From positions 372,001 through 436,000 of the forward strand of contig NZ_CANKXK010000001.1 of assembly GCF_947487605.1 (NCBI RefSeq): DNA of 64,000 nucleotides, in the 5' to 3' direction. Of this stretch, positions 33,844 to 38,649 are shown one piece after another. Within the stretch, counting starts at the first letter, position 1; every line of letters begins with the position of its first letter. Made by a program: the position numbers and the translations under genes. This DNA is from an uncultured Algibacter sp. Lineage in GTDB: Bacteria; Bacteroidota; Bacteroidia; Flavobacteriales; Flavobacteriaceae. The notes under the pieces are model-generated. The model made no database searches. It worked only from the letters and a program-made list of their open reading frames with translations, and was not told where the DNA came from.

Positions 33844-34689
33844 CTAAGCACTTAATCGTTCTACAAATATTGGAATGGAAATTCTATATACTACCAAGCC
33901 TAAAAATAATAAAGGAATACTTAACAAAATAACTATGACATAATAGGTTAAAAACTGAGGCGTTTGCCCTAATAATATATCTCTAGTTGTTAATAAAAGT
34001 GGTGTTAATGGATTGTATTCCATTAGGGTTTTCATGATGCCGCCTTTAGGTATTACATAAACCACAGGTGTTATGTACATCAACATCCTAAATCCCATAC
34101 TTAAAAAGCGGTTTACATCGCTATATAACATAGCCACAGGTGTAATAAACAAACCTATGCTTGTACCAAAAATAATAATTGCAAGTAAAGCTAGTGGGAA
34201 CAATAAAATACTTGCATGAAATTCGACACCAAATATTATAAAAAAGATTAGGAGCAAAACTATTTTAATAGAGGAATTAAAGAGTAGCTTATAGATACCT
34301 GAGATTAACAAGGCTTCTTTTGGGAAATTAATTTTCGACATAATCCCTTTGGCTCCTTTAGTGCTTGATGTTGGCGAATTAATAGCTTCAATTAATATGG
34401 CCCATAACAGGGTACCTGAAAATGCAAAGACAGGGTATGGTACTCCTGTATCGGATAACCGAATGGTTCCTGTTAAATTTAAAAATATCCAAACTCCTGC
34501 TGTTGTTATTGGTGTTAGAAAAGCCCATAATATACCTAAATACGATTGTCGGTATTGTGCCTTTATATCTCTAACCGTTAATTGTTTTGCCAAAAACCGT
34601 GAACCATAAATATCTTTTAAGCTATCCAGTAACAATTTAAAGAGCTTGGTGTTGTTTTCTTTTTGATAAATTCGTGTGGTTAGGGCCAT
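33844..34689 (-). CDS. wzm: ABC-2 type polysaccharide export permease (Wzm)
   Basis: 281 residues with about six hydrophobic segments. SRFLAKQLTVRDIKAQYRQS and YLGILWAFLTPITTAGVWIF are the N-terminal amphipathic helix and first span typical of Wzm/TagG permeases. MYSDVNRFLSMGFRMLMYITP and YNPLTPLLLTTRDILLGQTP are conserved in the family. It pairs with the Wzt ATPase. 25 bases separate it from the epimerase gene. Confidence 0.93.
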   Translation of the reverse strand: MALTTRIYQKENNTKLFKLLLDSLKDIYGSRFLAKQLTVRDIKAQYRQSYLGILWAFLTPITTAGVWIFLNLTGTIRLSDTGVPYPVFAFSGTLLWAILIEAINSPTSSTKGAKGIMSKINFPKEALLISGIYKLLFNSSIKIVLLLIFFIIFGVEFHASILLFPLALLAIIIFGTSIGLFITPVAMLYSDVNRFLSMGFRMLMYITPVVYVIPKGGIMKTLMEYNPLTPLLLTTRDILLGQTPQFLTYYVIVILLSIPLLFLGLVVYRISIPIFVERLSA

Positions 34690-34714
34690 TATAATATATA
34701 GATTATTTTATGTT

Positions 34715-35680
34715 TTACTTTTTTAAATATTCCCAAGCCATTTCTAAACCTTGTTGTGTCATAACTTCTGGATTATAATTTAATAAGCCTTGAGCTTTGC
34801 TAATATCTGCTAAAGAGTCTTTAACATCTCCCTGTCTAGAATTTACAAATCTCGGATTTAAATTAGAACTAGACAATGTTTTTAAATGTTTCCATAAGTC
34901 ATTGATACTTATGCGTTCTCCACATGCTATATTATATACTTGGTTACAGGCTTTTTTGTTGGCAAACAAAGCTCTAATATTTGCCTGAACTGCATTATCT
35001 ACATAGGTAAAATCGCGCGTCTGGTTTCCATCTCCATGAATTATTGGGGGTTGATTGTTTTTAATTGCGTCCATAAATAATGGTATAACGGCAGCATAAG
35101 CACCGCTAGGACTTTGCTTAGGCCCGAAGACATTAAAATAGCGTAAGCCTATGGTTTCTGTATTGTAAGTCTTGGCAAACACATCGGCATACAACTCATT
35201 TACATACTTTGTTACCGCATAAGGCGATAATGGGTTACCTATTTCATGTTCAACTTTAGGTAAGGTTTTACTATCTCCATAGGTAGAACTCGATGCTGCG
35301 TACACTAACCGCTTAACAGAATTACTATCTTTATAAGCCACCATGATATTTAAAAACCCGTTAATGTTTACTGCGTTAGTTGTAATTGGATCTTCTATAG
35401 ATCTAGGCACAGAGCCTAAAGCTGCTTGATGCGACACATAGTCTATATTTTTCATGGCCTTTTTACAGGTTTCTAAATCTCTTATATCGCCTTCAATAAG
35501 CTCGAAAGCGGGATGTTGTTCAAACTCTGAAATATTTTTACGATATCCATTAGAGAAATTATCTAATACGCGAACTTTTTTTGCATTATACTTTAATAAA
35601 TAGGCTACGAGATTAGAGCCAATGAACCCTGCGCCTCCTGTAATTAAATAACTATGGTTTTTAATGTGATTATTGTTCAT
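34715..35680 (-). CDS. UDP-GlcNAc C4-epimerase-type NAD-dependent epimerase (TviC/WbpP-like)
   Basis: Extended SDR. The Rossmann loop is SYLITGGAGFIGSN, with RVLDNFSNGYRKNI and HQAALGSVPRSIEDP as in WbpP/TviC. The catalytic triad is in AASSSTYGDS and SPYAVTKYVNELYAD (Ser, Tyr, Lys). It likely interconverts the C4 epimers of a UDP-HexNAc or its uronic acid, with the dehydrogenase gene upstream. I choose the ATG at 35680 (MNNNHIKNHSYL); a TTG 6 codons upstream is possible. The true ancestral N-terminus appears to have been displaced: an equivalent MGKDKIKEYSYLITGGAGF reading remains at 36046, beyond an inserted GIY-YIG gene. Confidence 0.9.
   Translation of the reverse strand: MNNNHIKNHSYLITGGAGFIGSNLVAYLLKYNAKKVRVLDNFSNGYRKNISEFEQHPAFELIEGDIRDLETCKKAMKNIDYVSHQAALGSVPRSIEDPITTNAVNINGFLNIMVAYKDSNSVKRLVYAASSSTYGDSKTLPKVEHEIGNPLSPYAVTKYVNELYADVFAKTYNTETIGLRYFNVFGPKQSPSGAYAAVIPLFMDAIKNNQPPIIHGDGNQTRDFTYVDNAVQANIRALFANKKACNQVYNIACGERISINDLWKHLKTLSSSNLNPRFVNSRQGDVKDSLADISKAQGLLNYNPEVMTQQGLEMAWEYLKK
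35625..35655. repeat. 31-bp direct repeat, copy in the epimerase gene
   Basis: These 31 bases, coding for SYLITGGAGF of the epimerase, recur without a mismatch at 35991-36021. The two copies border a 335-bp segment (35656-35990) that holds almost nothing but a GIY-YIG gene. Confidence 0.9.
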
Positions 35681-35975
35681 GTGTCTTCTTAATTTCAACT
35701 TGACCTATGAAATAAGATTTAAGGCGATTTCCCAAAAACATCTTACCATAATGCGTTTTTAAATATTTTTCACGCTTTAAAGCATCTTCTTGTGATAAGC
35801 ATCCTTCAAAATAAATTAATTCAAAAGGCCTTCTGTGTTTCGTTGACTGTACTTCACCTTTTTGATGAGCCTTAAATCTTGATGACAAATCTTTGGTATA
35901 GCCTATATATTTCTTACCATCTTTTAAAGATAATAATATATACACATAATAATATGGAGTCAACATATTTGTCAT
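35670..35975 (-). CDS. GIY-YIG endonuclease (first copy), inside an insertion in the epimerase gene
   Basis: 101 residues, essentially one GIY-YIG nuclease domain: YYVYILLSLKDGKKYIGYT with the two tyrosine motifs near 8-24, then the catalytic-type Arg in LSSRFKAH, and ALKREKYLKTHYGK with the metal-binding Glu near 80. Single-domain GIY-YIG proteins of this kind are related to the UvrC N-terminal nuclease. The ATG at 35975 overlaps the stop of a 23-codon epimerase remnant as TAATG, and its TAA stop lies inside the first codons of the present epimerase start. It therefore sits in a translationally coupled chain. Nothing else, such as a transposase, is carried by the insert. Confidence 0.88.
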   Translation of the reverse strand: MTNMLTPYYYVYILLSLKDGKKYIGYTKDLSSRFKAHQKGEVQSTKHRRPFELIYFEGCLSQEDALKREKYLKTHYGKMFLGNRLKSYFIGQVEIKKTHEQ

Positions 35976-36046
35976 TATTTCATGGGTTGAAACCCTGCGC
36001 CTCCTGTAATTAAATAACTATATTCTTTTATTTTATCTTTTCCCAT
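35975..36046 (-). pseudogene. Severed 5' remnant of the epimerase gene
   Basis: A 23-codon reading begins with ATG at 36046: MGKDKIKEYSYLITGGAGF, then QPMK and a TAA stop at 35975-35977. Its SYLITGGAGF matches the NAD-binding loop of the epimerase at 35680, while the first nine residues differ from those now in use. I infer that this is the original start of the epimerase gene, cut off by insertion of the GIY-YIG segment. Confidence 0.8.
35991..36021. repeat. 31-bp direct repeat, copy in the severed remnant
   Basis: Identical to 35625-35655. Directly next to it, GGGTTTCAACCC (minus strand) makes a small hairpin at the edge of the inserted segment. Confidence 0.9.
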
Positions 36047-36080
36047 TTTGACCTATTACTACTAATTACATTTCGACAAG

Positions 36081-36370
36081 CTCAATGTGACAAATCAGTT
36101 TAATATTTATATTCTTAACTTATCTCGTCAATAAGAACTAAGAATGTCAGTCTGAGCCTGTCGAAGACCAATAAAAACCTCAACTATTCAATACATTTCG
36201 ATACCTCAACAAGCTCAACACAAGCTTACTCAATGTGACAATTATTTTTATTATTACTATTTAGTTTCTATATCAGTCTGAGCTTCGTCTGCCTTGAGCA
36301 TAGTCGGAAAGGTCGAAGACCTTTATCTTCCAATTACTATCTGAATTTCGAAATATTTATAACACTTCGA
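36081..36370. repeat. Tandem duplication, copy 1 (unit 322 bp)
   Basis: 290 bases here match 36403-36692 with about six substitutions by eye; the repeat period is 322 bases. Each copy contains two F/R pairs, so the array has grown by duplication of a two-pair block. Confidence 0.9.
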
Positions 36371-36402
36371 CAAGCTCAGTGTGACAAGCTAACTCAAGCT
36401 TA

Positions 36403-36692
36403 CTCAGTGTGACAAATCAGTTTAATATTTATATTCTTAACTTATCTCGTCAATAAGAACTAAGAATGTCAGTCTGAGCCTATCGAAGACCAATAAAAAC
36501 CTCAACTATTCAATACATTTCGATGCCTCAACAAGCTCAACACAAGCATACTCAATGTGACAATTATTTTTATTATTACTATTTAGTTTCTAAATCAGTC
36601 TGAGCTTTGTCTGCCTTGAGCATAGTCGGAAAGGTCGAAGACCTTTATCTTCCAATTACTATCTGAATTTCGAAATATTTATAACACTTCGA
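36403..36692. repeat. Tandem duplication, copy 2 (unit 322 bp)
   Basis: Second copy of the block at 36081-36370. The few differences are scattered and fall both in palindromes and in loops, suggesting a fairly recent duplication. Confidence 0.9.
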
Positions 36693-36763
36693 TGCTTCGA
36701 CTAGCTCAGCACAAGCTTACTCAATGTGATAATCATTTTCATTATTACAATCTAATTTTATTG

Positions 36764-37123
36764 TCAGTCTGAGCTTCGCCTGCCTTGAGCTAGTCGAAAG
36801 GTCGAAGCCCCTTCCGAACTCGCATATTTACCAAACTGCGTATAGTTTTTAGAATATTTCACCAACTTATCCCAATCCTCATTTATCAAAGCCAACTTCT
36901 TACGTCTACTCCAACCTTTTAATTGTTTTTCAAAAGCTATTGCTTGTTTTGGATCACTAAACCCTTGCAACCACTTTAATACTATTGGTCTTCGTAAATA
37001 TGTATAAGCCTTTTTATCTAAACCGCTTTTATGTTCATACAACCGTCTTTCCATATTGGAGCTTATACCTACGTAAAATGTTCCATCTGAACATTCCAAA
37101 ATATAAACATAATAAGTTTTCAT
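36764..37123 (-). CDS. GIY-YIG endonuclease (second copy)
   Basis: 119 residues. YYVYILECSDGTFYVGISSN holds the GIY-YIG motif, followed by MERRLYEH with the catalytic-type Arg, TYLRRPIVLKWL, and AIAFEKQLKGWSRRKKLALI with the conserved Glu. It belongs to a different subgroup from the copy at 35670-35975. The natural domain seems to end near residue 102 (NYTQFGKYAS). The last ~17 residues (SEGASTFRLAQGRRSSD) are encoded by the R palindrome at 36763-36807, so the repeat has supplied the stop. Related palindromic blocks lie on both sides (36685-36807 and 37165-37292). Confidence 0.88.
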   Translation of the reverse strand: MKTYYVYILECSDGTFYVGISSNMERRLYEHKSGLDKKAYTYLRRPIVLKWLQGFSDPKQAIAFEKQLKGWSRRKKLALINEDWDKLVKYSKNYTQFGKYASSEGASTFRLAQGRRSSD

Positions 37124-37164
37124 TATGGCTTAATCTTTTTTATATTTTAATATCGTTCCGATAG

Positions 37165-37344
37165 CACTTCGACAAGCTCAGTGTGACAAACTAACATAAG
37201 CTTACTCAGTGTGATAATCATTTTCATTATTACAATTTAGTTTTATTGTCAGTCTGAGCTTCGCCAGCCTTGAGCATAGTCGAAAGGTCGAAGACCAGTT
37301 AAAACTTATCTATTCAAGACACTTCGACAAGCTCAGTGTGACAA
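37165..37344. repeat. Half-palindrome units upstream of the second GIY-YIG gene
   Basis: F unit at 37165-37215, R unit at 37248-37296 and a last F unit at 37320-37344, ending 12 bases before the dehydrogenase stop. The F/R pair 37165-37292 closely matches 36685-36807 across the GIY-YIG gene (same loop, about AATCATTTTCATTATTACAA), so the gene is enclosed by direct repeats of a palindromic block. Confidence 0.88.
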
Positions 37345-37356
37345 TCGTTTTCACTA

Positions 37357-38649
37357 TTACAACCTAGCATCAACTTTATCTATGGGTAACATCGCTTTTA
37401 CATCAAATACTACTGCATTTTCTGATTTTAAATGGTCTAAATCCAACTCTAAAAATTGCTGATGTGCAACGGCTAAAATAATAGCATTATAATTGGGTTT
37501 TAATTCTGGTGTTGAGTTAATCAAACTAATATTATATTCTTTTTTGACTTCATCAGCTGACGCTAGAGGATCAAAAACATCTACATGCATACTAAAGGAT
37601 TTAAGCTCATTAATAATATCAATCACCTTAGAGTTTCTAATATCTGGACAGTCTTCCTTAAACGTAATACCAAGCACCAAAACTTGGGTATCTTGTAATG
37701 CCTGACCTTTAGCCACCATAAGTTTAACTGTTTCCTGCGCTACATATTTACCCATACTGTCATTAACCTTACGTCCTGCTAATATTATTTCTGGATCGTA
37801 ACCCACTTCAATAGCCTTTTGTGCTAAATAGTAAGGGTCTACACCAATACAATGACCACCAACTAAACCAGGTGTGAACTTTAAAAAGTTCCATTTGGTA
37901 CCAGCTGCTTTTAACACCGCTTTAGTATCTATATCTAATAACCTAAATATTTTAGACAGCTCGTTAACAAAAGCTATATTAATATCGCGCTGTGCATTTT
38001 CTATCACTTTAGCGGCTTCTGCCACTTTTATAGAGGGTGCTAAATACGTGCCTGCTGTAATAATAGATTTATAAAGAGCATCAACCTTTTTTGCTGTTTC
38101 TGGTGTTGAGCCAGAAGTTACCTTTAGGATTTTTGTGACTGTATGTGTTTTATCTCCAGGATTGATACGTTCGGGAGAATAGCCTACATAAAAATGGGTG
38201 TTAAACTGTAAACCAGAAGTTTCTTCTAAAATAGGCACACAAATATCTTCTGTGAGTCCAGGGAATACAGTAGATTCGTAAATAATGATATCGTTTTTAG
38301 AGAGCATTTTACCTACTGTTTTACTTGCCATAAGTAAAGGTGAAAGTACAGGTTTGTTATTAGCATCTGTGGGTGTAGGAACCGTAATAATATATATAGA
38401 GGCTTCTGAAATATCTGCTGGATCATTTGTAATGATTAAGCCATTATCATGTATATTCTTTTGAGATATTAAAACTTCTTTCAAAGCATTATAGTCGACT
38501 TCGTGAGTAATATCAATTCCATTATTCAAATCATTGATTCTTTTTTCGTTAATATCGAATCCAAAAACTTTATACTTTTTAGCAAATTCAACAGCTAGTG
38601 GTAAACCAACATAACCTAACCCTACTATTGCAATTGTTTTAGTTGACAT
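37357..38649 (-). CDS. UDP-N-acetylhexosamine / UDP-sugar 6-dehydrogenase (TviB/WbpO type)
   Basis: 430 residues. The NAD-binding loop is IAIVGLGYVGLPLAVEFAKK at 7-26. YIITVPTPTDANNKPVLSPL is the family's central motif, and the catalytic cysteine is in GLVGGHCIGVDPYYLAQKA near 267. It oxidises the C6 hydroxyl of a UDP-sugar twice to the uronate. The length and the KWNFLKFTPGLVGGHCIG context fit the Vi-antigen TviB/WbpO group (UDP-GlcNAc or UDP-GalNAc) better than UDP-glucose dehydrogenase. The epimerase partner lies beyond the GIY-YIG insertion. 21 bases separate it from wzc. Confidence 0.92.
   Translation of the reverse strand: MSTKTIAIVGLGYVGLPLAVEFAKKYKVFGFDINEKRINDLNNGIDITHEVDYNALKEVLISQKNIHDNGLIITNDPADISEASIYIITVPTPTDANNKPVLSPLLMASKTVGKMLSKNDIIIYESTVFPGLTEDICVPILEETSGLQFNTHFYVGYSPERINPGDKTHTVTKILKVTSGSTPETAKKVDALYKSIITAGTYLAPSIKVAEAAKVIENAQRDINIAFVNELSKIFRLLDIDTKAVLKAAGTKWNFLKFTPGLVGGHCIGVDPYYLAQKAIEVGYDPEIILAGRKVNDSMGKYVAQETVKLMVAKGQALQDTQVLVLGITFKEDCPDIRNSKVIDIINELKSFSMHVDVFDPLASADEVKKEYNISLINSTPELKPNYNAIILAVAHQQFLELDLDHLKSENAVVFDVKAMLPIDKVDARL

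Follow-up and report, generated by a model that had tools for sequence, protein, structure and literature searches.

Described free-standing homing endonuclease genes lie next to other genes or in the space between them, or interrupt a gene. IS200-like elements and REP–RAYT systems are small, with palindromic ends, ORF-less palindromic relatives and an HUH tyrosine transposase. The mORFs of fungal mitochondria, in the sections of Beaudet et al. (2013, PMC3630166) used here, make gene hybrids of atp6, atp9, cox2 and nad3 (the Allomyces atp6 case is cited there). An endonuclease ORF, of the GIY-YIG type in atp9, inserts and a foreign piece completes the gene; the displaced native piece is more like the version found in close relatives. 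C-terminal duplications beside GIY-YIG ORFs are described from another fungal mtDNA in an excerpt of PMC6279837. The consulted part of a 2006 survey of GIY-YIG proteins (PMC1564403) covers stand-alone Slx1-like domains and a fusion with a tRNA methylase, and does not name tRNA genes as targets. Among literature titles and the starts of abstracts, a source that lies mostly outside subscription journals and is weak evidence of absence, we found no bacterial GIY-YIG gene that restores its target.

Here we analyse a GIY-YIG gene inserted in an epimerase gene in a 64,000-nucleotide stretch of an uncultured Algibacter genome (the window). With a probability that we put at roughly two in three, this insert is a self-contained mobile gene of the homing-endonuclease type that carries a repair patch for its target.

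Anatomy of the insert in the epimerase gene

A repeat search of the window finds a direct repeat pair of 46 nt with 87% identity, starting at positions 35625 and 35991. Its perfect 31-nt core is present at 35625–35655 and, as the upstream copy on the minus strand, at 35991–36021; a match of this length at such spacing is not due to chance. The 335 bases between the copies (35656–35990) contain a minus-strand ORF, the 101-codon gene of a single-domain GIY-YIG nuclease (35670–35975), which is defined by the ORF list, a Pfam match (GIY-YIG, PF01541, E 4.8e-18) and its omega values. Repeat and ORF searches thus agree with an earlier note on this DNA, which had described an epimerase segment of 31 bp present twice without mismatch and separated by little more than the nuclease gene.

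Read along the minus strand, the locus begins with the displaced 5′ end, or remnant, of the epimerase gene (36046–35975), which consists of MGKDKIKEYSYLITGGAGF followed by QPMK and a stop (translation MGKDKIKEYSYLITGGAGFQPMK) and has counterparts at the same place in 26 other SDR loci. The TAA of the remnant and the ATG of the nuclease gene have one A in common, and the nuclease TAA falls inside ATGAACAATAA, the start of the 322-aa epimerase; both overlaps (TAATG, and the nuclease stop within the new epimerase start) had been noted before and are correct on reading the sequence. The break is placed between 35991 and 35990. The restored epimerase (SDR) gene spans 34715–35683 on the minus strand, as judged from the ORF list and profile matches, and its best NCBIfam match is TviC, under that model's cut-off. 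Its first part (35625–35683, minus strand), delimited by the repeat search and by locus comparison, is a replacement 5′ end, MNNNHIKNHSYLITGGAGF; the other copy of the 31-bp repeat is part of it, and it probably arrived together with the nuclease gene. The two N-termini diverge upstream of the core (MGKDKIKEY versus MNNNHIKNH), and the 31-bp repeat is only the conserved SDR portion of a longer likeness between the two 5′ ends. An inverted-repeat search, together with the covariation described below, places the left arm ACCCATGAAATAA at 35975–35987, overlapping the start of the nuclease gene, and the right arm TTATTTCATAGGT at 35703–35715, inside the coding sequence of the nuclease tail, both on the minus strand.

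The search of positions 34600–38600 of the window against Rfam gave no match at E up to 1, which argues against an intron or other RNA element. The region upstream of the insert holds another GIY-YIG gene, also of a single domain but different (119 aa, 36764–37123), set among tandem repeats of about 322 bp with TTCGACAAGCTCAGTGTGACA-like units. Between the two GIY-YIG genes, positions 36081–36692 hold two 290-nt copies that are 98% identical at a spacing of 322.

Recurrence at one codon of nucleotide-sugar SDR genes

Species genomes were scanned with an alignment of homologues of the nuclease, and the best 80 of 164 relatives were kept. By eye, 26 of these 80 were assigned to SDR genes, making 27 loci with the window. 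They fall in several subfamilies of nucleotide-sugar SDR genes, and the break always falls at GGxGF^IG. A script detected both starts, displaced and restored, in 26 of the 27; at L107 the remnant is present, altered by a palindromic stub, and was recognised by eye, so that remnants occupy the same place in 26 SDR loci besides the window (25 by script, L107 by eye). The restored frame comprises 319–366 aa in 26 of 27 loci and 43 codons in L105. A look for other single-domain GIY-YIG genes bordered by copies of a host gene's 5′ end, proposed in the earlier note, has yielded 26 named SDR loci. The note's chain of remnant, nuclease and host gene with a rebuilt start also recurs: in 10 of the 27 loci the first in-frame ATG of the restored gene precedes the nuclease stop codon or falls inside it.

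Presence is patchy: a nuclease of this family (E 1e-18 or better) occurs in 11 of 397 sampled family genomes, and in two of these 11 it sits in a 23S-IVP gene instead. In L113 (Tamlana fucoidanivorans) no stop separates the GIY-YIG frame from the SDR gene downstream (447 codons by script count). L111 and L121 have stops within their nuclease frames and a restored SDR frame that is still open; these are decaying elements.

Native and replacement 5′ ends

A comparison of flank repeats, which took in 77 of the best 80 relatives (three were dropped), shows that the likeness of the two copies ranges from 41/41 bases in L103 and 74/76 in L107 down to different proteins. At L095, for example, the displaced end reads MYHTNDLSGLNFLVTGGAGF and the restored end MIEQELHNYSFLVTGGAGF; the copies at L097 are also clearly different proteins, and the end codon is the same throughout. 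The earlier proposal that the insertion duplicates 31 bp is not supported in view of this range, and of the movement of the downstream copy with the nuclease (see below). The same GIY-YIG gene without the identical 31 bp, which the note had named as evidence against an insertion, does occur; it is accompanied by a diverged replacement end and not by the absence of one.

Among the 30 closest orthologues of the epimerase, 27 have no close nuclease homologue beside the gene by tblastn, and two of the 27 have a distant GIY-YIG gene (34–37% identity) within 1.5 kb. By a broad pattern, an N-terminus of the YHxxDLS type is found in 21 of these 27 element-free orthologues, with near forms in three (G016, G061, G145) and none in three others (G092, G177 and G171, the last not readable in frame). 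The restored ends of the three element-bearing orthologues (own genome, G025, G063) are without YHxxDLS, and the remnants at L095 (the G025 locus) and L096 carry it. Because this motif is common to those remnants and the element-free orthologues, the displaced end is the native one in L095 and L096. Comparison with insert-free relatives, as the note had suggested, thus identifies the native end at these two loci; in the window the remnant is probably native by analogy with them. Neither end is of the YHxxDLS type in the window or in G063, for which an earlier round of invasion may account. Two element-free epimerase orthologues, L264 (G092) and L275 (G177), have atypical N-termini that are possibly the scars of a lost element.

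The replacement end travels with the nuclease in a clear case

Galbibacter sp. EGI 63066 contains two copies of the element, L097 and L098, each in a different SDR gene. The stretch that runs from break to nuclease end agrees between them at 277 of 290 columns, and the linker plus new 5′ end at 62 of 77; the remnants and gene bodies are unrelated apart from a short motif. Measured against shuffles, the new ends reach z 16.2 and the remnants z −0.6. The right end of the travelling unit extends beyond the inverted repeat in SDR genes. Comparison of these two loci indicates, in this one clear case, that the replacement end moves with the nuclease.

Across 24 loci, nuclease identity is correlated with likeness of the new 5′ end (Mantel rho 0.37, p 0.001), weakly with the gene body (rho 0.15, p 0.045), and with the remnant at rho 0.13 (p 0.16). 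New end and gene body are also correlated with each other (rho 0.22, p 0.002). Among 200 locus pairs with unrelated gene bodies, new ends exceed z 4 in two pairs (L097/L098 at 16.2 and L105/L108 at 4.5; the other 198 do not) and remnants in none, and within these pairs nuclease identity is not a significant predictor of new-end likeness (rho 0.12, p 0.09). At L159, the restored end MNLEQLSQLEDKKILVSG resembles by eye the ends of another SDR subfamily, the displaced end being MQKILITGAAGF. A foreign origin of the replacement end is clear only in some loci.

Stacked units and the restored site

At L136 an outer end, MKKVLVTGMAGF, which is different, is followed by two units that are identical at 327 of 335 positions and both end in MxKHKIKKILVTGMAGF. 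L133 retains an older nuclease fragment of another lineage (113/144 identical to the present nuclease), and fragments also occur at L125, where the fragment is upstream and older, and at L099. Such stacking means that the restored site can be entered again.

The last 24 nt before the break were compared at 25 loci (without L107, L125 and L159, where the script missed one end, and without L044, the same locus as L111; with L042). Restored end and remnant are identical over this segment in four of the 25, the mean is 20.3 of 24, and in the window 23 of 24 nt are shared. The differences in the other 21 loci are mainly at third positions and mostly synonymous, and could protect the restored allele from re-cutting. 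Since the motif is kept in the restored site and re-entry occurs, the immunity of the occupied allele expected for homing is not evident.

Inverted ends of the element

The ends of the element form inverted repeats, ACCC[CT]GT[GCT]AAAT on the left and ATTT[CGA]AC[AG]GGGT on the right. Taken singly, the inverted repeat is above the 99th percentile of shuffles in 49 of 81 loci; that of the window, which is imperfect, has a score of 21 and only equals the 99th percentile (21). The arms change jointly across 74 of the 81 loci, the seven without an anchored pair being left out. Arm pairs were chosen for best likeness, which inflates pairing and for which permutation is a partial control: by this measure column 2 is paired in 97% of loci versus 42% permuted (33 joint changes), column 8 in 99% versus 60% (18 joint changes) and column 6 in 96% versus 76% (nine joint changes). 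One column is poorly paired (51% versus 37%), and the outer columns 0, 1, 13 and 14 show no covariation in the 74 loci. Covarying inverted ends are not predicted by plain homing. Palindromes without an ORF and with element-like ends occur near the break at L107 and L108 and upstream at L099 (L107 and L099 by eye), and resemble what would be expected of non-autonomous relatives of the element.

The nuclease and its choice of target

Residues Y23, G25, R33, H37 and E69, which we take to be catalytic, are invariant in nine homologues of the window nuclease. A Pfam scan of this protein returns only GIY-YIG and T5orf172 matches and no known transposase domain; together with the same anatomy at 26 named loci, this supports the earlier description of a mobile GIY-YIG gene of minimal size that lies in a sugar-pathway gene and comes with no recognised transposase. 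The nuclease is a single domain in which Pfam recognises no DNA-binding domain, which leaves its specificity for a long site unexplained. The nearest solved structures are UPF0213 proteins (1zg2, E 3e-9). The gene is under purifying selection, with omega of 0.05–0.19 in eight pairs and 0.06–0.19 in the four pairs that include the window.

On a tree of 81 nucleases the target labels are SDR (27), 23S-IVP (14), RAYT-like (6) and other (34); they were assigned by eye, and 5 of the 14 IVP and 2 of the 6 RAYT-like assignments were then matched by family models. The labels change 12 times on the tree versus 38.6 in shuffles, and none of 200 shuffles is as low. Bacteroidota and other named groups change 10 times versus 11.3 (73 of 500 shuffles as low), where the non-Bacteroidota records are mostly metagenome bins that may include foreign contigs. 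The nuclease tree, itself poorly resolved (4 of 78 inner branches starred), thus predicts the target gene. No relative was found in viral contigs (0 of 97 pattern matches), and a phage or plasmid vector was rejected, with one plasmid and three phage records only, all at 40–42% identity over part of the query.

At the 20 loci where a nuclease of this family sits in a 23S-IVP or RAYT-like gene, we saw no copy ending at the break; other flank repeats, which do not end there, occur in several of them (for example L138 and L157). Flanks were joined with the trimming that left the open frame longest, and the joins of all five IVP loci scanned match PF05635 over almost its full length. Four joined RAYT-like frames matched no Pfam family; the two tried in NCBIfam both match NF047646, under its cut-off. 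The patch would accordingly appear to be retained where the target matters to the host.

Related GIY-YIG genes beside tRNA genes

A survey of tRNA genes covered 105 unique small GIY-YIG loci, which are open-frame picks among the matches listed for a 60-genome sample, plus loci of the own genome. All 33 tRNA records within 700 bp lie on the strand of the nuclease; as the loci partly overlap in arrays or are near-copies, the records are not independent and represent 27 distinct ones. Reversing the input turns all 33 to minus, so the strand calls are sound. A tRNA gene lies within 160 bp at 20 loci, versus none of 50 SDR-gene control loci (one gene class), which also have none within 700 bp.

On the other side of the nuclease a significant partial copy of the tRNA is present at 16 of 19 testable loci (L223 has no other side) and was not found at L192, L251 and L076. 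Where the tRNA is downstream the copy is mostly of its 5′ part (for example L033, L225, L077, L088 and L089), and where it is upstream mostly of its 3′ part (L245, L249, L208 and L218). Inner parts are copied at L187 and L039, and nearly the whole tRNA at L218b. At L085 a tandem array of three nuclease copies, every one preceded by a 5′ piece of tRNA-Pro, is followed by a complete tRNA-Pro. The own genome has partial copies beside GIY-YIG genes at tRNA-Leu and tRNA-Pro. These related single-domain genes seem to do to tRNA genes what the window nuclease does to SDR genes.

The own genome also has near-identical GIY-YIG genes at two tRNA-Pro loci, L035 and L039, one with an internal stop. By eye, palindromic mini-repeats lie inside the tRNA fragments of L033, L077, L081, L083, L086, L192, L208, L245 and L253, and at times replace the anticodon arm in fragments beside GIY-YIG genes.

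Proposed mechanism and alternative explanations

In the reading we prefer, the mobile unit would consist of the GIY-YIG gene, a short linker and a spare target 5′ end up to the break. At the conserved GGxGF^IG codons the nuclease would cleave an SDR gene, and repair of the break would copy the unit, patch included, into the cut site. The recipient would keep its original 5′ end as an upstream fragment, and its gene would be completed by the spare end, whose ATG adjoins the nuclease stop, with translation of remnant, nuclease and host gene presumably coupled. No intron or intein would be needed for the element to settle in a useful gene. The sequences themselves show the constant break codon, the native remnant in two relatives and the travel of the replacement end with the nuclease in one case, and further the stacked units, the choice of target along the nuclease tree and the covarying inverted repeats. 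The weaker sides of this reading are the single-domain nuclease, the immunity that is not evident and the inverted ends.

The last of these speaks for the main rival, a transposon-like element, which we consider unlikely while giving it some weight: the GIY-YIG protein would act on its own inverted ends, perhaps on a hairpin in single-stranded DNA, and insert at TTY^A-like sites, SDR sites prevailing only since copies with a spare 5′ end survive there. In its favour are the joint changes of the arms in 74 of the 81 loci. These ends also delimit elements that lie in 23S-IVP genes, RAYT-like genes and elsewhere with no restored end, and the ORF-less palindromes of L107, L108 and L099 have such ends. 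However, insertions fall repeatedly at set codons within conserved motifs, the target type is inherited with the nuclease, a short target-site duplication was not seen, and the right end of the travelling unit in SDR genes lies beyond the inverted repeat. The repeat by itself, moreover, beats the 99th percentile in only 49 of 81 loci, and its outer columns do not covary. Ordinary transposition with a 31-bp target-site duplication is very improbable. It is suggested by the 31 identical bases of the window and the 41 of L103, but across loci the repeat differs greatly in length and identity, and its two copies are sometimes different proteins, for which reason a target-site duplication was rejected; none of a fixed short length was seen at the compared loci.

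A second 5′ end could also be made anew in each host, if unequal recombination after the insertion duplicated the host 5′ end and selection kept the repair. The L107 copies, alike at 74 of 76 nt including bases upstream of the start, are what such an origin would leave, and those of L125 (73/77) and L136 (70/74) are alike at first sight; the correlation of the new end with the gene body points the same way. Yet the two similar ends of L136 both belong to units and follow an outer end that differs from them, at L125 an older nuclease fragment lies upstream, and identical copies are also expected from homing between strains of one species. The ends of L097/L098, of L105/L108 and, by eye, of L159 match a sister copy or another SDR subfamily, and nuclease identity tracks the new end, all of which makes an origin within each host improbable. 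That the nuclease is a resident host gene, its surroundings shaped by chance recombination with neighbouring gene ends or by misassembly, has hardly any likelihood given the same anatomy in 27 loci of many genera, the patchy presence, the purifying selection and the clustering of targets on the nuclease tree.

Taken together, the SDR and tRNA targets point to a kind of minimal bacterial mobile gene that has apparently not been described before. If the patch-carrying reading is true, a selfish gene lives in a useful gene without splicing by bringing the missing piece, and the mobile unit is very small, a single gene of some 100 codons with a short patch. Gene fronts would be moved between paralogues, and probably between species, giving hybrid proteins. 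Many unnamed single-domain GIY-YIG genes, and perhaps the adjoining palindromic repeats, would gain a concrete role, and bacteria would have a mirror of a process described, to our knowledge, from fungal mitochondria. A wider and distinctly tentative proposal, which we think has the odds against it, is that single-domain GIY-YIG genes drive a hitherto unnamed class of minimal mobile elements in bacteria, which have palindromic ends, conserved protein and tRNA genes as targets and a patch that repairs the target from either side, and that the palindromic mini-repeats of Bacteroidota are their ORF-less relatives, as REP are to RAYTs.

Comparison with known systems

The SDR elements share small size, palindromic ends and ORF-less palindromic relatives with IS200-like elements and REP–RAYT, and have a GIY-YIG protein in place of the HUH tyrosine transposase. 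With group I introns and inteins that bear homing endonucleases they have in common the GIY-YIG domain and a target in a conserved motif; unlike these, their host frame is rebuilt without splicing. Free-standing homing endonucleases, as the consulted part of PMC3984707 on intronless homing presents them, resemble them as selfish nucleases of a homing family with a fixed conserved site and empty alleles in relatives, whereas in the SDR elements the broken gene is restored by a carried patch. The tRNA-integrating islands of the Islander paper (PMC4383910) likewise have a split target, a restored gene and a displaced fragment at the ends. Those islands use a tyrosine integrase and carry larger cargo, in contrast to the single GIY-YIG gene of the present elements; at the tRNA-side loci that were read, no integrase lies between the repeats.

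Compared with the portions of PMC3630166 that describe mORFs, the SDR elements show the same combination of an endonuclease ORF, a foreign gene end and a displaced native end. In mORFs the 3′ end is replaced, in mtDNA, whereas in the SDR elements it is the 5′ end, in bacterial chromosomes; beside tRNA genes, copies of the 5′ or the 3′ part occur. The SDR elements differ further in a gene of about 100 codons and in their covarying inverted ends. As far as these portions go, the SDR elements appear as a mirror image of the fungal mORFs, which are the nearest described kind.
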